Source: Bacteroidales bacterium (GTDB lineage: Bacteria > Bacteroidota > Bacteroidia > Bacteroidales > Rikenellaceae). Taken from it: a DNA stretch of 64,000 bases. Shown here piece by piece: positions 712 through 62,933 of this stretch (position 1 is the stretch's first letter; each line of letters opens with the position of its first letter). Below the pieces are notes generated by a model. The model saw only the letters and a list, made by a program, of their open reading frames with translations. It was not told the DNA's origin and did not search any database. The translations under genes and the position numbers were made by a program. Where the stretch lies: positions 186,001-250,000 of the forward strand of contig CAJTFS010000003.1 in assembly GCA_910575495.1 (NCBI GenBank), given 5' to 3'.

Positions 712-2880
712 ATGCAAACTATTCTGACAGAAAAACCGAGCGTGGCACGGGAGATCGCGCGCATCGTCAAGGCGACCCGCCGTGAAACAGGGTACTACAC
801 GGGCGGTGGCTACAACGTAACATGGGCTTTCGGGCATTTGGTGCAACCCGCCCTGCCGGACGGCTACGGCATCAAGGGATTTCACCGCGACAACCGACGA
901 ACGAAGCAAGAGCAGAATCGAACTTGTTCGGATTTTGCCTTGCAAGGAGGAGGAAGAACAACGCTCAACCTGCCGATTATCCCGCCTGTCTTCCAGCTCG
1001 TACCGCGACAGGTCAAAACCGAGAAAGGCTACAAGCCGGACAGCGACGTGGCGGCGCAGATCAAAGTCATCGCGCGGCTGTTCCGCGAAAGTGAGCGCAT
1101 CATCGTTGCGACGGATGCGGGACGCGAAGGCGAACTGATCTTCCGTTACCTGTACGAGTATATCGGCTGCGCCACGCCGTTCGACCGCCTTTGGATCAGC
1201 TCGCTCACAGACAAAGCCATCCGCGAGGGGCTGGAGCGCATCGAGAGCGGCTCGAAGTACGACAACCTCTACTACGCGGCCAAAGCCCGCAGCGAGGCCG
1301 ACTGGCTGGTAGGCATCAACGCCACGCAGGCCATTACGATAGCCGCCGGACGCGGAACGTATTCGCTCGGCCGCGTGCAGACGCCGACACTGGCTATGGT
1401 CTGCGAACGGTATTGGGAGAATAAACGTTTCACGCCCGAATCCGTGTGGCAGGTGCATTTCGCCACACCCGGAACGGGCGCCGATTCGGTCGTCAAGTTC
1501 TCTTCCGTCGAGAAGTGGAAGGAGAAAGCCCCTACCGAAGCTGCTTACAAAGCCCTCGAAGCACAAGAAACGGTAAGTATTACGAAAGTCGAGCGCAAGG
1601 AAACCGTGCAGGAACCGCCCCTGCTTTACGACCTCACGACGCTCCAAAAGGAGGCGAACACCAAGCATGGGTTTTCGGCGGAGAAGACGCTCTCCATCGC
1701 GCAGAAACTCTACGAGGCCAAAGCGATCACCTATCCCCGCACGGGCAGCCGATATATTCCCGAAGATGTTTTCGGGGAGATTCCCGCCCTGCTGCGTACA
1801 CAGAAGAATAACCCCGCATGGGCGAAACGGCTCGCGCTTGTGGGCGACACGCTCTCGCGCCGCAGCGTGGACGACGGCAAAGTTACCGACCACCATGCGC
1901 TGCTGCCGACGGACGTAAAGCCGAAGATGCTTTCAGCCGACGAACAGACCGTGTACGACATGATCGTCGGGCGTATGCTCGAAGCCTTCGCCGAACGCTG
2001 CGTAAAGGATGTAACGACCGTAACGGTTGTATGCGACGGTGTGGAGTACGTCGCCAAAGGGACTATTATCCGTCAGGCGGGCTGGCGCGACATCTATGGC
2101 GAGGAGACGGAGGATACCGTGCTGCCCGAATGGACGGAGGGCATGACGCTTCCTGTCGGCGGCTGTTCAATGACCGAGGGCAAGACCAAACCCAAACCGC
2201 TGCACACGGAAGCGACGCTGTTGGCAGCGATGGAGACGGCAGGCCGCGAGATCGAGGACGACGAAATGCGTCAGGCGCTCGAAACGTGCGGTATCGGCAC
2301 GCCTGCGACCCGCGCGGCGATCATCGAAACGCTCTTTTCGCGAGAGTATATGGTAAGACAGAAAAAGTCGCTCGTGCCGACCGAAAAGGGGCTAGCACTC
2401 TACTCGGTAGTCAAGAATATGCGTATCGCCAACGTGGAGCTGACGGGCGATTGGGAGGCTGCGCTCGCCAAGATCGAGCGGGGCGAGATGCGCGCCGAGA
2501 CCTTCCGCGAGGCAATCGAAAGCTACACCGAGCAGATCACTTCGGAGCTGCTCGCCTCGGACAAGCTCTTTACGCACAAGAGGTCGGATTGCCTCTGCCC
2601 CAAGTGCCGGACGGGACGGATGCAGTTCTACGGTAAGGTCGTGCGCTGCGACAACGACGCGTGCGGACTGCCCGTGTTCCGCATCAAGGCGGGCAAGACG
2701 CTCTCCGACGCGGAGATCACTGAACTGCTGACCAAAGGCCGCACCGAAGTAATCAAAGGCTTCAGCAGCAAGCAGGGCAAGGCGTTCTCCGCCGTCGTCG
2801 CTTTCGATGCGGAGTTCAACACCGTTTTCGAGTTTTCGGAGCAGACGCGTGTGAAAAAATCAACGAAGAGAAAGAAATAA
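712..2880 (+). CDS. topB: DNA topoisomerase III (type IA)
   Basis: This 722-residue enzyme is a type IA topoisomerase, which passes single DNA strands through a transient 5'-phosphotyrosine break. The N-terminal Toprim domain shows LTEKPSVAREIA at residues 5-16 and a later acidic DAGREGE motif. The active-site region reads AKAITYPRTGSRYIP, with the catalytic Tyr in the ITYPRT motif. A GIGTPATRAAIIETL motif and a C-terminal Cys pair region (CLCPKC) resembling a zinc ribbon follow. TopB of this type is a constant part of Bacteroidetes ICE accessory blocks. Residues 62-86 (896-970) have no counterpart in the family pattern I know, where GF-x-R-x-x leads straight into LPIIPP; see the separate repeat entry. 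Confidence 0.95.
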   Translation: MQTILTEKPSVAREIARIVKATRRETGYYTGGGYNVTWAFGHLVQPALPDGYGIKGFHRDNRRTKQEQNRTCSDFALQGGGRTTLNLPIIPPVFQLVPRQVKTEKGYKPDSDVAAQIKVIARLFRESERIIVATDAGREGELIFRYLYEYIGCATPFDRLWISSLTDKAIREGLERIESGSKYDNLYYAAKARSEADWLVGINATQAITIAAGRGTYSLGRVQTPTLAMVCERYWENKRFTPESVWQVHFATPGTGADSVVKFSSVEKWKEKAPTEAAYKALEAQETVSITKVERKETVQEPPLLYDLTTLQKEANTKHGFSAEKTLSIAQKLYEAKAITYPRTGSRYIPEDVFGEIPALLRTQKNNPAWAKRLALVGDTLSRRSVDDGKVTDHHALLPTDVKPKMLSADEQTVYDMIVGRMLEAFAERCVKDVTTVTVVCDGVEYVAKGTIIRQAGWRDIYGEETEDTVLPEWTEGMTLPVGGCSMTEGKTKPKPLHTEATLLAAMETAGREIEDDEMRQALETCGIGTPATRAAIIETLFSREYMVRQKKSLVPTEKGLALYSVVKNMRIANVELTGDWEAALAKIERGEMRAETFREAIESYTEQITSELLASDKLFTHKRSDCLCPKCRTGRMQFYGKVVRCDNDACGLPVFRIKAGKTLSDAEITELLTKGRTEVIKGFSSKQGKAFSAVVAFDAEFNTVFEFSEQTRVKKSTKRKK
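896..970 (+). repeat. In-frame palindromic insert inside topB
   Basis: This 75-bp segment adds 25 codons between HRDN and LPIIPP. It is flanked by CAACC at 891-895 and 966-970, a possible 5-bp target duplication. Its centre folds around GAACTTGTTC (920-929), with outer pairing GCAAG/CTTGC. Its 3' part (GCAAGGAGGAGGAAGAACA) matches the intergenic elements at 35211-35276, 62309-62377, 62621-62690 and 27222-27290. The length is a multiple of three, so the frame is kept. Confidence 0.75.
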
Positions 2881-2954
2881 TGCGTATATTCGCCACTGAA
2901 TTCGCAGACATAGATTGCACCCGCTATCCCGATAGCCGATACCGATTTATTCTC

Positions 2955-3036
2955 TGTGGATTTAGTGGTGGCACTCGGCGGGGACGTCGAGTGCCTTTTT
3001 CGTCTATCCGCTTTTCCATCAACCACTAAATCCACA
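2955..3036 (+). promoter_or_regulatory. Nested hairpins: terminator enclosed by a long inverted repeat
   Basis: TGTGGATTTAGTGGT (2955-2969) is the exact reverse complement of ACCACTAAATCCACA (3022-3036). Between them is a terminator-like hairpin, GGCACTCG (2970-2977) with CGAGTGCC (2988-2995), followed directly by five T. The outer arm ends seven bases before the DUF1896 start. The layout suggests attenuation or differential expression between topB and the genes after it; the mechanism is inferred. Confidence 0.6.
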
Positions 3037-3042
3037 AGAATT

Positions 3043-3483
3043 ATGAATCAGCAAAACAAGCCTGCGGAGCTGTCCTATTACGGGCTTTACCTGTTATCCT
3101 ACCTCAAAGAGAACCATCCCGACAAGGCGCACGACGCGGCCTTCGTCGAGGAGCGCGCCGACCGTGCTGCTGAAGTATTCGAGCAGGCGCGGCACGAGGG
3201 TTATCTGCCCGAAGGAGCGCAGGAGCTGGCGATGGCCGCCCTGTTGGAGGGGCTTCGCTTCTCCAAGTACGACACGATCATCGAGGTGCTATGGAACGAG
3301 TTCCCGGATGAGATCGCCCAAAGCGACGCACCCGTTATCGCGCTCCGACTACTACCCTACGTAGAAGGTATCTTCACGCAATACCCGCTTTCGGACGACT
3401 TCGCCTACTCGTCCGAATACGAGCAGCTCTACACGGAGCTTACGGGAGCCGTCTCGATCATACTCGCAGAAGATGGCATTTAA
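3043..3483 (+). CDS. DUF1896 family protein
   Basis: This 146-residue acidic, helical protein starts with [27 protein letters not shown] and continues with an [10 protein letters not shown] region. It matches the DUF1896 pattern that lies between topB and the large helicase in Bacteroidetes conjugative elements. The start at 3043 follows the ACCACTAAATCCACA repeat. It overlaps the downstream methylase-helicase by 11 bases, so the two are probably translationally coupled. No catalytic motif is visible and no function is established. Confidence 0.8.
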
Positions 3484-6400
3484 CCGTAAAGCCAAGCTGC
3501 GGGACAACATCGAGGCGATACGCACGGCTTTCGAGTTGGACGGTGCACGGCGGGCAGCTACTCCCGAAGAACGGGAACGGCTTGCCCGCTACTGCGGGTT
3601 CGGCGGATTGAAATGTATTCTCAATCCGGCCGCCGATCTGACCGACGCCGTGCAGTGGGCGAAATCCGACCTCGAACTGTTTCCGCTGACGTTGGAACTG
3701 CATAAGTTGATTCGGGAGCACAGCTCCTCCGAGGCGCTGTACAAACAATATGTCGACAGCCTGAAAAGCTCCGTGTTGACGGCATTCTATACACCTCCCG
3801 CCGTTACGGAGGCGTTGGCCGACGTGCTGGACGATTACAACGTGCGCCCGCACCGCCTGCTGGAACCATCCGCAGGACACGGCGCATTCGTCGAGGCGTT
3901 TCTTCGAAAGAACGCCGATGCCGACGTCATGGCCTTTGAAAAAGACCTGCTGACGGGCAAAATCCTCGCGCACCTCTATCCCGACAAGAATGTGCGGACG
4001 GAGGGTTTCGAGCGCATCGAAAAGCCTTTCAACGACTATTTCGATGCAGCCGTCTCCAACATCCCGTTCGGAGACGTGACGGTCTTCGATCCGTCGTTCA
4101 CCGCCAGCGAATCGGTCGGCCGTCGCAGTGCCGCGAAAGCTATTCACAATTACTTTTTCCTCAAAGGGCTGGACGCCGTCCGCGACGGCGGCATCGTGGC
4201 GTTCATCACCTCGCAAGGCGTGATGAACTCCCCGCGCAACGAGGCAGTGCGGCTCGAAATGCTCCGAGAGGCGCACCTCGTCTCTGCGATCCGCCTGCCG
4301 AACAACCTCTTTACCGACTACGCCGGAACAGAGGTCGGAAGCGACCTAATCATCCTGCAAAAGGACACCCATAAAGAGGGGCTGACGGAGGACGAAAAGT
4401 TGTTCGCCCAAACGGGAATGCTGCACGGCGTCAGCACCAACCTCTATTTCATCGAACACGGGGAGCAAATCATCCATACGAGCGCGAAACTGGATACCGA
4501 CCCTTACGGCAAGCCGGCAATGGTTTACGAGCACGATGGCGGTGCAGAGGGCATCGCGACGCAACTGCGTGAGCTGCTCGACCACAACCTGCATGCGCGA
4601 TTAGCTATGCGGCTCTATTCGGGCGGCATTCGGGATGCTCGGCTGCAAGAGCTGCAGGCGGTAAAAGACCCAATGCCGGAACCGCTCCGCCAAACAGAAC
4701 AGCCGGTTATTGCGCCAAGCGAGGAGAAGCCCGAAATCGAGCCTCCCCTTCTGACGCTTTACGACCTGTTCGGCTTCACGCAGGAGGAACGACGCATCGC
4801 CCAGACGGGCGGCAAACCCCGCCGCCGGAGCAACCGCCCCAAGCTGGTGCAGCCGCGTCAGCCGTCGCTGTTCGATACGCCGACACAAACGACAGCGGAA
4901 ACGGCGCAACCCGTCCAGACCGCAACGGCCGAGTATCTCGTCGAGAACGGGATTAAGGAGGACTTGAACCGTCGTATTACCGATGTCGAGCGGCAAATCC
5001 GCGAGGAGGAGGAGGCAAAACTCACGGCGGAAGAGCGGCAACGCAGACACGAAGAGGAGATGAAGCCCCGACCGTTCGACGGGTTATTGGAGCCGCACCT
5101 CCGCGAGGGTTCGCTGGTCAAAGTAGATACCGACGATGCCCGTTATCAGGTCGGCTACCTGAAAGACGTTACCCGCTACGGCGCGACGTTCCATCCGCTC
5201 GATCTGGACAAGGCGCAACAGGCGAAAATTGCGGCCTACATCTCCGTGCGCGACGCTTACGAGCGGCTCTATGCCTATGAAGCCGAGTACCAAGACGAAG
5301 GCGATGCCATGCGCGACGATCTCAACGCTCGTTACGATGAGTTCGTGGCCCGTTACGGCAACCTGAATGCCAAAGCGAACGTCAAGCTCCTGATGATGGA
5401 TGCTTCGGGGCGCGACACCCTCGCATTGGAGCGTTCGGAGAACGGGCAGTTCGTCAAGGCCGACATCTTCGATCATCCCGTAGCGTTCGTCGTGAACGAG
5501 GTTACGCATGTCGATACGCCCGAAGAGGCACTTTCTGCCTCGCTCAACCGCTATGGCAGCGTGAACCTCGACTACATGGAATCCCTCTCGGACAACAGCC
5601 GCGAGGAGTTGATCGACGAGCTGAAAGGGCGCATCTTCTATAATCCGCTTTCCGGCGGTTACGAGATCAAAGACCGTTTTATCGCGGGCAACGTGGTCGA
5701 TAAGGCAGAGCGCATCGAGGCATGGATGGCCGAGAACCCGCACGGCAAAAAGGAACAAGAGGCGCTTACCGCCTTGCAGGAGGCTGCGCCGCGCCCGATC
5801 ACGTTCGACGAGCTGGACTTCAACCTCGGCGAGCGGTGGATACCGACGGGCATCTACTCGGCCTATGCCTCCTACCTGTTCGATACCGACATACGCATCG
5901 GTTATTCGGAGAGCATGGACGACTACGCCGTCAAGTGCAGCGTGCGAAACGCCAAGATTCTCGACCAGTTCTGCGTCAAGGGGTATTACCGCAGCTACGA
6001 CGGTATCGCCCTGCTGAAACACGCCCTCGTGAACACCGTACCCGATATGACCAAGAGCATCGGCAAGGACGAGCACGGCCACGACATCAAAGTGCGCGAT
6101 AGCGAGGGCATACAGCTCGCCAATTCAACAATCGACGAGATCCGAAACGGATTCGCAGAGTGGCTCTCGGAGCAGTCGCAGGAGTTTCAGAAGCGGCTGA
6201 CGGATATATACAACCGCAAGTTCAACTGTTTCGTGCGGCCGCAGTACGACGGTTCGCACCAGACCTTTCCCGACCTCGACCTGAAAGCCCTCGACCGACG
6301 GTTCGGAATCAAGGACGTCTATCAGAGCCAAAAGGATTGCATCTGGATGTTGAAGCAAAACGGCGGCGGCATCTGCGACCACGAGGTCGGCACGGGAAAG

Positions 6401-9082
6401 ACGCTGATCATGTGCGTGGCGGCGCACGAGATGAAGCGGCTGGGACTGGTGCACAAGCCGATGATTATCGGGCTGAAAGCCAACGTTGCGGAGATAGCCG
6501 AGTGTTACCGCACGGCCTACCCGAACGCAAAGATACTCTACGCCTCGGAAAAGGACTTCACGCCCGAAAACCGCGTGCGGTTCTTCAACAACATCAAGAA
6601 CAACGACTACGATTGCGTCATCATGTCGCACGACCAGTTCGGCAAGATTCCGCAGTCGCCCGAATTGCAGCAACGCATCCTGCAAGCCGAGTTAGACACG
6701 GTGGAGGAGAATTTGGAGGTGTTGCGCAGGCAGGGCAAGGATATTTCGCGAGCGATGCTTCGGGGTTTGGAAAAGCGGAAAATCAACCTCTCCGTGAAGC
6801 TGGAGAGTATCGCCCACGCCATCAAGTCGCGCACGGACGACGTGGTGGACTTCAAGCAAATGGGCATCGACCATATCTTCGTGGACGAGAGCCACCAGTT
6901 CAAAAACTTGATGTTCAACACGCGCCACGACCGTGTGGCGGGGCTGGGCAATCAGGACGGCAGTCAAAAGGCGCTCAATATGCTCTATGCCATCCGCACC
7001 ATACAGGAGCGCACGGGCAAGGATTTGGGCGCGACGTTCCTGTCGGGCACGACCATCAGCAACTCGCTGACGGAGTTGTACCTGCTGTTCAAATACCTGC
7101 GCCCAAAAGAGTTGGAACGGCAAAATATCAACTCGTTCGATGCGTGGGCGGCGATCTTCGCCAAGAAATCCACTGATTTCGAGTTCTCGGTAACGAACAA
7201 CATCGTGCAGAAAGAGCGCTTCCGCTACTTCATCAAAGTCCCGGAGCTGGCGGCGTTCTACTCCGAGATTACCGACTACCGCACGGCGGAGGACGTCGGC
7301 GTGGATCGCCCCGACAAGAACGAGGTGCTCCACAACATCCCGCCCACGCCACAGCAGGAGGAGTTCATCGAAAAGCTGATGCAGTTCGCCAAGACGGGCG
7401 ACGCGACGATACTCGGTCGCGCGCCGCTCTCCGAAACGGAGGACAAGGCCAAGATGCTGATCGCAACGGACTACGCCCGCAAGATGGCGCTCGACATGCG
7501 GCTGATCGACCCGAACTACGACGACCATACAGACAACAAAGCGAGCCACTGCGCCCGTATGATTGCAGAATACTACCGCAAGTACGACGCGCAGAAAGGA
7601 ACGCAGTTCGTCTTCTCGGATTTGGGGACGTTTCAGCCGGGGCAGTGGGCCTCTTCGATTGAGCGAGGGCAAAGGGAACTTGTTCCCTCTGCCGAGCAGG
7701 AGAAGAGTAGAACGAAGTTCAACGTGTACAGCGAAATCAAACGCAAGCTCGTGGAGGATTACGGTATTCCCTCCTCGGAGATTCGCTTCATCCAAGAGTG
7801 CAAGACCGACAAGGCGCGCAAGGCCGTTATCGACGCGATGAACGAGGGCAAGGTACGGGTTATTTTCGGCTCGACCTCCATGCTCGGAACGGGCGTCAAT
7901 GCGCAGAAACGAGCCGTCGCGGTGCATCATCTCGACACGCCGTGGCGTCCCTCCGACCTCGCGCAACGCGACGGACGTGCCGTGCGCAAGGGCAACGAGA
8001 TCGCCAAGCTGTTCGCTGGGAACAAGGTCGATGTAATTATCTACGCTGTAGAAAAATCACTCGACAGCTACAAGTTCAACCTGCTGCACTGCAAGCAGAC
8101 GTTTATCTCGCAGCTCAAAAGCGGCGCGATGGGCGCGCGAACCATCGACGAGGGGGCGATGGACGAGAAATCGGGCATGAACTTCTCGGAGTACATGGCT
8201 ATTTTATCCGGTAACACGGACTTGCTCGACAAAGCTCGGTTGGAGAAGAAGGTGGCAGCGTTGGAGAGCGAGCGCAAGTCGTTCCACAAGGCTAAGAGCG
8301 GCTCCGCGTGGAAATTGGAGGAGTACACCAAGACGCTCGCCCACAACAACGACTGCATCGTCAAGATGTCGGCGGACTACGAGACGTTTCTTGCGCGGGT
8401 GCAGACCGACAAGGAGGGCAATAAACTCAACACCTTGCGGCTCGACGGGCTGGATGCCACCGACCACAAGAGCCTCGGTACGCACTTACAAGAGATCGCC
8501 AAAAACGCTACGACGGGCGGCGAGTATCTGCGTATCGGCGAACTGTACGGCTTTCCGATTCTCGTCAAGACCGAATCCGCCCTGAAAGATGGCGTGGAGG
8601 TCAAGCAGAACCGTTTCTTCGTGGAGGGGACGTTCAAGTACACCTACAACAACGGGCAGGTAGCGATGGCCGACACGAAAGCCGCTGCGTCGAATTTCCT
8701 CAACGCTTTGGAGCGTATACCCAAGCTCGTGGAGCAGTATCGGGAGAAGAACGTCGAATACGAACGGGATATTCCGATTTTGCAGCAGACCGTCGGAGGC
8801 GTATGGAAAAAGGAGGACGAGTTGAAGCAGCTGAAATCCGAGGTTGCAGCGTTGGAGCGCAAGATTCAGTTGGAACTGACGCCGCCCAAACCCGAAGCCG
8901 TGCAGGAGCAGCAAGCCGACGGCGGGACGGCACAGACGCAATCGTCGCCGACCGGAGAACGAGCGACAACGGAGCCACCCGCCGATGCGCCGAATAGGTC
9001 GCAATTTCTACGGGAGCATGTGCATGTACTGAGGCCGTTACCAATCATAGCAAATGGACAGGCAAAAGGACTAAAAAGGTAG
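3473..9082 (+). CDS. Giant N6-adenine methylase-like / SNF2-type helicase fusion of ICEs
   Basis: This protein has 1869 residues. The N-terminal third resembles an N6 DNA methylase: [11 protein letters not shown] matches the SAM-binding motif and SNIPFG stands in for the NPPF catalytic motif. A charged, coiled middle part follows. The C-terminal half is a superfamily 2 helicase with Walker A (HEVGTGKT), Walker B (VDESH), and a late [11 protein letters not shown] motif preceded by [15 protein letters not shown]. Such fusions are standard in CTnDOT-like and related elements and are thought to act in element DNA processing or protection; no precise role is proven. Residues of about 1393-1416 are an in-frame insertion. 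The last 60 residues are low complexity. Confidence 0.9.
7649..7720 (+). repeat. In-frame palindromic insert inside the methylase-helicase
   Basis: Twenty-four codons separate the expected QW from [10 protein letters not shown], a join that is direct in related proteins as I remember them. The insert centres on GAACTTGTTC (7676-7685), in a stem GGCAAAGGGAAC / GTTCCCTCTGCC with one mismatch. It continues with GCCGAGCAGGAGAAG and ends CGAAG, like the intergenic elements. The shared GAACTTGTTC begins at codon position 1 here but at codon position 2 in topB, so the two copies encode different peptides. Confidence 0.75.
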
Positions 9083-26969: not shown

Positions 26970-27403
26970 GGTGAATAAAAATTAAAGAACGTTTTTTTAA
27001 GCCGAGTGCAGAGCCGAACCCTGTTCGAACGTTGCCGAGGCGCGAAAACCTGCCCTGAAAAGGGAACTAAAAAATTCCGCCCCGATGTCTGAGCCGTAGG
27101 CGGAGGAGGGACTAAAAGCGTGAGCGCAGGGGCAGGTTCGCTTGCGAACCCGCGATTAGGCGCCCGAAGCAGCGTTAGGCCCTCCACAGCAGGCGAAGAC
27201 AATCGGAAGGAGAGGCTAACTGCGCTGCGCTTGTTTTCCTCCTCCTTGCGAGGTATAGTCCGCAAGCGGCCTCTGCCCTCGCTGCGAGCGTCGGTTTTTA
27301 CGCCGCTTTTTGCCGGCACAAAAAGCGGCAAATAGAGCGACAAAAACCCAAAAAAAAGGATTCGAAACACCTGTTAAAAAATACAAATAATCAAAATAAC
27401 CCC
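26970..27403. repeat. Repeat-rich spacer between rimP and nusA
   Basis: The spacer holds two stem-loops built around a conserved TT loop. One is GGTTCGC-TT-GCGAACC near 27130. The other, at 27222-27290 (reverse orientation), contains CTCCTCCTTGCGAGG and GTCCGCAAGCGGC and matches the palindromic element inside the MITE copies and the two ICE genes. The T-rich 27290-27345 could slow or stop transcripts. No gene is supported here. Confidence 0.6.
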
Positions 27404-34950: not shown

Positions 34951-35885
34951 GTTGTGTAGCAATCGCTGAATGGAATGCGGCGGAGGGTGCGAACAATGGT
35001 TTTACTGCGAATGTTAATGCAGTCACCTCGTACGGAATGTCGGGCGCAGCCTGCGGGGCACGCTTGCGGGCCTCTGCTGCGGGAGGCTGCGGCCCGCACG
35101 GCTCGAAGAGCCGAACGACGGCGACAGCAAATCGTTCGCCCGGGCCGGCTGCGATCGTCCCACCTCGACAACCCTACTTTGTCATTCTGAACGAAGTGAA
35201 GAATCTTTTCCCTTGCGAACCAAAGGCCGCTTGCGGACTCTTCCGAGCAAGGAGGAGAAAGACAAACGAAGTGCAGTCAAGAATCTATTTTGGGCAAGGT
35301 TACAGATTCTTCGTCGCTATGCTCCTCAGAATGACAAAACGGGAAGAACTGAGATCCGCACGACGCGTTGGAACCAAACTATTCATTGTTCGCAAACTCC
35401 GCGGCAGACTGGAATAAGTAACTGACGGCAACGCAGATTGAGAAGTGGGAATTAGTTGTTCAGTGTTCGGTTTGCGAAGAAATCCGGCGTTCAGCCGTGC
35501 GAGCCGAAGCCCCGCCACGCGGAGGCTCGCAGATACTCGCCCCGCTGGCTTCGGCACGAGAACATCTCCTGCGTTGACCATGAAGCAGAGTTTGCGAACT
35601 AAACAGCGTGCGCTCTTTCTGAATAAAGCGAACGCAGCCTGCGGGGGTGAGCCCGGCGACAGCCGAAGCGGCGAGCCTCCGTGCCGAGAGACTGCGGCTC
35701 GCGCAATTCTGCGAATTGCAAAAAACAATCTCCGAAAAAAACGACTGCAAACAACCGCAAACGAACAGTGATTTTCCTTTAATCCTCCCGCGCCATTACG
35801 CCGCCAGCGGACTGCTGAATCTACAAACCACGCTGACAAAAGCCGTGACCCTTGTCACTCCGGGTGTGAAGTTGCCGGAGGCGAA
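34735..35885 (-). repeat. Long dispersed repeat, copy A (inverted relative to copy B)
   Basis: Read on the minus strand, it is collinear with 61725-63165. Shared blocks in order: a GTGACAAGGGTCACGG-type stretch; GCAGTCCGCTGGCGGCGTAA; a GAAGCC-rich palindromic part; GTTACTTATTCCAGTCTGC; the MITE-like part; the 35000-35175 block (near identical, including CATTAACATTCGCAGTAAAA); and the FISUMP end. No intact gene is seen in 34264-35963. Confidence 0.7.
35181..35335 (+). mobile_element. MITE-like element, copy A
   Basis: Ends are GTCATTCTGA and TCAGAATGAC, extended inside to GAAGAATC / GATTCTTC, forming terminal inverted repeats. The interior holds the palindromic core GGCCGC-TT-GCGGAC and GAGCAAGGAGGAGAAAG (35211-35276, plus orientation). 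It encodes no transposase, so any movement would need an enzyme supplied in trans. Confidence 0.6.
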
Positions 35886-48314: not shown

Positions 48315-48403
48315 GGAGAGATGGGTGAGTGGCTGAAACCACCGGTTTGCTAAACCGACGTACGGAGTAATCCGTACCACGAGTTCGAATCTCGTTCTCT
48401 CCG
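48315..48403 (+). tRNA. tRNA-Ser (anticodon GCU)
   Basis: 89 nt with acceptor stem GGAGAGA / TCTCTCC and discriminator G. The anticodon loop TTGCTAA lies in GGTTTGCTAAACC. It has the long variable arm typical of tRNA-Ser (TACGGAGTAATCCGTA) and T-loop GTTCGAATC. CCA is not encoded. The GCU anticodon reads AGC/AGU codons. Confidence 0.97.
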
Positions 48404-61717: not shown

Positions 61718-62145
61718 GGAGGTAGCCCGTTCACAAGCGACTTCGTACCGGGAGTGATGCAGGTCAGGGCTTGCATCAGCATGGTCGGCAGATTCAGCAA
61801 TCCGCTGGCGGCGTAAAGGCGCGGGAGGGTTATGTAAGGAAATAGTTGTATCGGGTGCGCAGCGTTGCGCGAGCCGCTGCCAGCTTACGGTTTTGGTTCG
61901 GCAGAGATACCGGCACCGGCTTTTTGTCCGACGCGGTCGACCGGTGGCGCAAATATTCTCGTGCCGAAGCCAGCGGAGCGAGTTTTGCGAGCCTCCGCAG
62001 GGCGGGGCTTCGGCTCGCACGGCTGAAGCCGGATTGTATTTCTACAAACCGCAGTCGCCCGAGCATCTTTTCTCTTTACCTACTCGCGTTGCCGCCAGTT
62101 GCTTATTCCAGTCTGCGGCGGAGTTTGCGAACAATTCAGTAGTTT

Positions 62146-62409
62146 GTCATTCTGAGGAGCAGAGCGACGAAGAATCTGTATAAAAGTATACGTAGACAGA
62201 TTCTTGACTGCACTTCGTTTGTCGTTCACTTCTTTACGAAGAGCCGCTGCAACCGTCATGTTGAGCGCAGCGAAACATCTGTAACCTTGCTCAGAATAGA
62301 TTCTTGACTGCATTTCGTTTGTCTCTCTCCTCCTTGCTTGGCATAGTCCGCAAGCGGTCTCTGCACTCGCTGCGTTCATCATAGATTCTTCGCTAACGCT
62401 CAGAATGAC
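62146..62409. mobile_element. MITE-like element, copy B1
   Basis: Ends GTCATTCTGA / TCAGAATGAC with inner GAAGAATC / GATTCTTC. Contains AGAATCTGT / ACAGATTCT around TATAAAAGTATACGTA (62171-62204) and the palindromic core at 62309-62377 in reverse orientation (CTCCTCCTTGC, CCGCAAGCGG). No transposase. Confidence 0.6.
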
Positions 62410-62553
62410 AATTATGGCAGGCTCTTTCTCTTTCTGATCGGAAGACCTTGCGCCCGGGGCCGGCTCGCGCTGAAAGCGCGACCCCCGCAGCCGGCCCGGG
62501 CGAGCACACGAATGAGTTCCCGAAAGGAAATGATTCAATGCAAAGACAGCATT

Positions 62554-62715
62554 GTCATTCTGAGGAGATCGGAAGATCGACGAAGAATCTGTATAAAAGT
62601 ATACGTAGACAGATTCTTGACTGCACTTCGTTTGTCTTTCTCCTCCTTGCTCGGCATAGTCCGCAAGCGGTTTCTGCGCTCGCTGCGTTCGTCGATCCAC
62701 TTCGCTCAGAATGAC
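62554..62715. mobile_element. MITE-like element, copy B2
   Basis: Same ends and the same AGAATCTGT / ACAGATTCT hairpin (62584-62617) as copy B1, with the core palindrome at 62621-62690 in reverse orientation. It is shorter because it lacks the middle 90 bases or so of B1. Confidence 0.6.
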
Positions 62716-62933
62716 AAAGTAGGGTTGTCGAGGTGGGACGATCGCAGCCGGTCCGGGCGAACGATTTGCAGTCGCCGTTGTTCGGCTCTTCAAGCCGTGC
62801 GGGCCGCAGCCTCCCGCAGCGGAGGCCCGCAAGCGTGCCCCGCAGGCTGCGCCCGACATTCCGTACGAGGTGACTGCATTAACATTCGCAGTAAAACCAT
62901 TGTTCGCATCCGCCGCCGCATTCATCCGAGCGA

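Follow-up and report, generated by a model that had tools for sequence, protein, structure and literature searches.

Several families of short palindromic repeats have been described in bacteria. The Rickettsia palindromic elements (RPEs) and the coding palindromes of Wolbachia are dispersed short palindromic repeats with open frames, some of which lie in frame within conserved protein genes (PMC2229807, PMC3733652). Miniature inverted-repeat transposable elements (MITEs) such as ERIC, NEMIS, and RUP are non-autonomous, duplicate a short target, and in some cases have open frames fused to genes (PMC2229807), and the PARCELs are palindromic coding repeats that recur in tandem every 25 codons within open reading frames (ORFs) of Mollicutes and others (PMC2996958). 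Here we consider a 64,000-nucleotide stretch of a Bacteroidales bacterium of the Rikenellaceae (contig CAJTFS010000003.1, positions 186,001 to 250,000), referred to below as the window, in which two genes of an integrative and conjugative element (ICE) each contain an in-frame copy of a palindromic element of about 67–75 bp. We read this element, with a probability of roughly 0.74, as a non-autonomous palindromic mobile element, similar to MITEs and to the repetitive extragenic palindromic (REP) elements, which is dispersed in Alistipes, occurs also in other Bacteroidales, and has twice been inserted in frame in ICE genes.

The two genes lie on the forward strand. The first, topB (712..2880), encodes the type IA topoisomerase of the ICE, as indicated by its homologues and by the Pfam domains Topoisom_bac, Toprim, and Toprim_Crpt, and is an intact ORF of 722 amino acids including the insert; the second (3473..9082) is an intact ORF of 1869 amino acids for an N6-methylase/SNF2-type helicase (Pfam N6_Mtase, SNF2-rel_dom, and Helicase_C). 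Both are full-length, and no further disruption was seen in either. The topB insert (896..970, forward) comprises 75 bp, exactly 25 codons between GAC AAC and CTG CCG, and consists of a body (896–965) followed by a 5-bp duplication: CAACC stands on the left at 891..895 and again on the right at 966..970. The insert in the helicase part of the second gene (7649..7720, forward), delimited by homologues, empty sites, and its fold, comprises 72 bp, exactly 24 codons between TGG and AAC GTG, has the outer stem CTCTTC/GAAGAG, and falls, to judge from the sequence, between the conserved FVFSDL segment and VYSEIKRKL. Alignment to family members fixes the insert borders exactly, with empty sites in the relatives: all 89 TopB homologues and all 63 helicase homologues that cover the respective points are without the insert. 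The closest known ICEs, those of an Alistipes senegalensis metagenome-assembled genome (L182 = G432; TopB identity about 82%) and of genome G378 (79%), have neither insert in their DNA, the topB site in G432/L182 reading GACAACCTGCCG, with a single CAACC, and the helicase site in relatives reading CAATGGAATGTG or CAGTGGAACGTG; the two other TopB copies of the host genome (L313 and L318) are likewise uninterrupted at the insert point. An earlier note on this DNA had claimed that each gene contains 24–25 extra codons where homologues read straight through, that the two inserts share a common sequence and have lengths that are multiples of three, that CAACC flanks the topB insert on both sides, and that the common core is read in different frames. 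All of this holds, coordinates and sizes included, the core being read as CGA ACT TGT TCG in topB and as GAA CTT GTT CCC in the helicase gene.

Each protein probably carries 24–25 extra amino acids. A peptide read from the insert would be, for example, TCSDFALQGGGR. In the predicted TopB fold, which is mediocre overall (pLDDT 69), residues 51–93, insert included, are unstructured with low confidence, while the helicase prediction was too poor for use. It could be supposed that the insert is bypassed in translation or removed from the mRNA, leaving the protein unchanged, and the stable hairpin together with the matching AAC codons that the topB duplication places at both edges, fit for take-off and landing, would suit such a route; the helicase insert, however, has no matching codons, and the freedom from stops and the lengths in multiples of three, seen in both inserts, are not needed for bypassing; we find the idea scarcely credible. 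Among copies of the element 54% of forward frames are open, as opposed to 29% in shuffled copies, and with about 54% of its frames free of stops an insertion of a length divisible by three can thus be tolerable in a gene.

The inserts belong to a large family with a common architecture, in which an outer stem, a conserved internal loop (CGAG ... CCGAG), and an inner stem (GGCA/TGCC) lead to a terminal hairpin whose loop is mostly CTTG or TTTA. In topB the structured core, a double-stem hairpin with a CTTG loop, occupies 903..948 (forward; 56.4 bits with covariance model R1 and 41.7 bits with model R2), and in the helicase gene the core with the GGGAAC/GTTCCC hairpin occupies 7660..7702 (forward; 49 bits with R1 and 42.7 bits with R2), R1 having been partly built from these two copies. 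The four intergenic copies listed in the earlier note exist and align. All are of the A type: one, apparently intergenic, at 27222..27290 (reverse; R1 core 27243–27285), one at 35211..35276 (forward; genome match C3:221221-221278) within an outer TGTCATTCTGA..AGAATCT repeat, and two intergenic ones at 62309..62377 and 62621..62690 (both reverse), which were recovered by alignment, by a genome search with the intergenic consensus, and by covariance model; to these we add a B-type copy, also apparently intergenic, at 26999..27045 (forward; R1 45.5 bits). That genic and intergenic copies share one plan is borne out insofar as all of them align, but the A-type copies of the window have a CCGC/GCGG stem, and the genic copies therefore belong to another subfamily.

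The paired arms covary, as the note had also proposed. Among 109 aligned copies, 83 of them distinct, standard pairs occur in 92.7% of cells in an alignment that was fitted to the model and is to that extent biased toward structure, and changes on both sides are found at all 13 model pairs, with 192 double-changed cells against 57 in shuffled and at most 15 in slid-partner controls; in view of the varied stems and of the slid controls, the result is clear despite the fitting. The outer stem varies in the same manner (GTTTTC/GAAAAC, AGATAC/GTATCT, ACATAG/CTATGT, CTCTTC/GAAGAG, and others) and has six or more complementary bases in 63 of 128 copies, compared with 23.5 in shuffled copies (maximum 33). 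Strong covariation and loops such as CTTG and GAAA would also be expected if the hairpins were conserved functional RNAs, for instance mRNA-stabilizing or regulatory next to promoters, with the genic copies as chance passengers, and some isolated copies do adjoin CAAAGATACGAAT, which is complementary to a TAnnTTTG-like box. Against this stand a copy number that ranges from 0 to over 100 within the single genus Alistipes, unlike that of an essential regulator, and the fact that no Rfam family, at E<=0.5, matched the element itself in any stretch that was searched (one RT-7 match overlaps a copy), so that we consider a primary RNA function improbable.

Genome-wide copy counts are all lower bounds. 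Used as DNA queries against the host genome, the topB insert found 31 matches at E<=1e-3 and the intergenic consensus 41 strong ones from one subfamily, and a covariance model built from the topB, helicase, and six second-subfamily copies gave at least 143 matches when 150 of 964 candidates were scored. Together with the covariation, this puts the similarity of the copies well outside what chance would yield. Copies occur singly and in tandem arrays with a period of about 73–76 bp, in which the hairpin of the element alternates with a second hairpin (CCC-GAAA-GGG or GGC-GAA-GCC), and the subfamily-A copies, read in context, are nested in longer TGTCATTCTGAG..CTCAGAATGACA repeats. The surroundings of the copies show some further features. 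Subfamily-A copies are housed (e.g., at L121, L080, and window 62140–62720) in a second palindromic repeat of larger size, TGTCATTCTGAGCGAAG..AGAATCT..CTCAGAATGACA, which resembles CGTC/TGTC-tagged REPs; immediately before many of the single intergenic copies (e.g., C1:170277, C1:488674, and C8:85468) stands CAAAGATACGAA, whose complement holds a TAnnTTTG-like promoter box and which could reflect either a leftover hairpin arm or a preferred target; and two contigs end in equal-scoring subfamily-A copies, each 99% identical to the consensus (G000:C1:85-160 and G000:C7:85-160), because of which we believe that this repeat probably breaks the assembly.

Genic copies are rare, since topB and the helicase gene are the only cases among the examined copies of three genomes: these two among about 170 in the host genome, the rest being intergenic, and none at about 55 sites in two other Alistipes genomes, of which some 0.36–0.4 Mb each was sampled. 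Reading frames across the copy were sought for 129 model matches, and 20 of the longest other ORFs were tested against Pfam. No wider coding use emerged, as the other spanning ORFs are mostly without Pfam domains; in the ORFs with LepA, DsbD, CBM48/alpha-amylase, and POT transporter domains the copy lies upstream of the domain and of the probable start, and a sub-threshold domain match spanning the copy in an ORF at L146 was taken as chance. An apparent twin of the ICE in G400, with two insert-like matches 6.7 kb apart, turned out to be intergenic and unrelated. As for taxonomic spread, matches at E<=1e-6 were found in 17 of 25 Alistipes genomes, the host included, and in a single genome among 16 from other genera; 36 of 151 Alistipes genomes have DNA resembling the two inserts; and a broader model, for which few candidates per genome were scored so that the survey gives a lower bound, reached at least 25 of 295 Bacteroidales genomes in at least 20 of 184 sampled genera. 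Phage and plasmid collections gave no match. The expectation that copies would recur in other genes or genomes is thus borne out for other Alistipes and Bacteroidales genomes, and the copies examined added no further genes.

Evidence for movement comes from a second independent insertion. In other Bacteroidales a copy in an ICE spacer (L196:7348-7397, and at the same position in L243, L246–L249, L199, L200, and L202) forms a 78-bp insertion that repeats AAACA, and the site is empty in the sister ICEs L195, L191, L211, and L255; the flanks in the G432 ICE are too diverged to yield a third duplication. With 5-bp duplications at two sites, insertion by an enzyme is favored, though the cases are few. 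The tandem arrays with their regular period, the absence of a transposase found for the element (only Y1 was looked for), and the possibility that arm-to-arm correction could yield covariation would instead suit a spread by replication errors, that is, by template switching or unequal recombination between hairpins and arrays; yet single copies at unrelated sites, precisely inserted and with a 5-bp duplication in topB and in the ICE spacer, speak against this explanation, which we regard as unlikely. That the element might be a classic REP moved by a REP-associated tyrosine transposase (RAYT), a Y1 transposase, is suggested by its palindromic, intergenic, high-copy character; we rejected this identity on account of the missing transposase, no Y1_Tnp match (PF01797) having been obtained in 31 Alistipes genomes including the host while the control was positive in 5 of 14, and no GTAG or CGTC end tag is common to the subfamilies. 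It is thus very improbable.

The element shares features with each of the described families and coincides with none. With REP elements and REPINs that depend on a RAYT it has in common high copy number, intergenic location, hairpin formation, and occurrence in clusters and tandem groups, but it is longer, with a multi-part hairpin and a covarying outer stem, it has no Y1 transposase in the genomes named, and, as judged by eye from alignment A6 and its flanks, only subfamily A starts with GACG, no GTAG/CGTC tag being common to the element. Like the MITEs it is non-autonomous and has open frames in genes, and at its two clearest sites it duplicates a short target, whereas no terminal inverted repeat common to all copies is recognizable, the outer stems being present but differing in sequence by subfamily. 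With the PARCELs, compared here by description, it shares a palindromic coding repeat of 25-codon length, but those are tandem coding domains and the present arrays are intergenic. The parallel with RPEs and Wolbachia palindromes drawn in the earlier note stands for a palindromic, dispersed, covarying sequence inserted in two frames into two conserved ICE genes with empty sites in their homologues, and fails for general habit: RPEs lie in many coding genes, whereas the element is mainly intergenic. Its 67–75 bp, its host phylum, and its structure differ as well, and the likeness is one of behavior. We would describe it as a new family of REP/MITE type, RPE-like within topB and the helicase gene, whose largely stop-free sequence lets it occasionally survive in frame in dispensable ICE genes.

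We propose that copies would be inserted at new sites by an enzyme that presumably acts in trans, with a few base pairs of the target duplicated (5 bp in the two clearest cases), and would build up between genes, singly or in tandem arrays. Two in-frame insertions would then have persisted in topB and the methylase-helicase gene of one ICE after its split from the closest known relatives, most likely adding flexible loops of 25 and 24 residues to otherwise functional proteins, and the palindrome is probably kept either because its structure is needed for moving or copying or through template correction from arm to arm. Several points weigh against this account. Clear target duplications number only two, and none that was clean was found at the helicase borders; a search for flanking direct repeats at 43 isolated copies gave mostly background and was confounded by array remnants; no mobilizing enzyme was found, a partner transposon having been looked for only as Y1; translation of the inserts is inferred from the DNA; and two genic copies in one ICE do not establish a general coding tolerance. 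A further alternative is that the ICE genes are no longer needed and the insertions are tolerated damage, uninformative on functional coding palindromes. It draws on the two further topB paralogues of the host genome, both without the insert, and on the confinement of both genic copies to one ICE, no host gene having been seen with a copy, and is countered by ORFs that remain intact over 722 and 1869 codons, with the frame kept and no other disruption, and by low ratios of nonsynonymous to synonymous substitution against G432 (0.17 for TopB and 0.15 for the helicase), which mostly reflect, however, the time before the insertions. We consider this explanation rather unlikely.

Some observations concern RT-7 RNAs. 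In L380 (G296:C6) an RT-7 match above the Rfam cut-off (365214–365402) has a bAvd gene on one side and on the other a template-like, Asn-rich segment, after which comes a reverse transcriptase (YVDD); from this context RT-7 would seem to serve as the RNA component of a diversity-generating retroelement. Adjoining one reverse transcriptase gene in L383 (G303:C323), L381 (G301:C40:21976-25335), and G306:C85:10049-19546 are tandem arrays of 8–10 or more units, each an RT-7-like RNA (RF03028) followed by a cassette of about 200 nt for a diversified C-terminal peptide resembling a variable region (GYR..TGALTNVGTNGYYWSSS..NLNFNSTNVNPLNNNNRANGF.VRCVQ), variation being greater where a column contains A (0.36 versus 0.13); the arrangement resembles a diversity-generating retroelement whose cassettes stand in an array, already diversified. 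Dispersed RT-7-like sequences occur in the window at 61748–61955 (forward) and 35718–35864 (reverse) and at 32 or more other places in the host genome, in many cases with a subfamily-A palindrome a few hundred bp off on the opposite strand, and no reverse transcriptase was found nearby. Elsewhere in the window, a DUF805b RNA (RF02914; 48868–48900, forward) scores above the gathering threshold just downstream of a tRNA (48315–48403), at which similarity to the related ICE ends.

We found no description of such in-frame palindrome insertion in Bacteroidales in the open-licence literature, and it has apparently not been described in this order before. Members of the family turn up in 20 of the 184 genera sampled from the order, their shape preserved under sequence drift, and the question of what mobilizes REP-like hairpins where no RAYT is present can thus be approached here in a tractable system. 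More speculatively, and we think this rather doubtful, there could be a Bacteroidales-wide superfamily of structure-constrained mobile hairpins whose mover would recognize shape over sequence, perhaps on single-stranded DNA such as that of ICE transfer, and which would now and then add ready-made loops to proteins. In-frame coding palindromes have been known mainly from Rickettsiales, and the two clean cases in an ICE of a gut bacterium indicate that new protein segments may arise in this way in a distant phylum as well.
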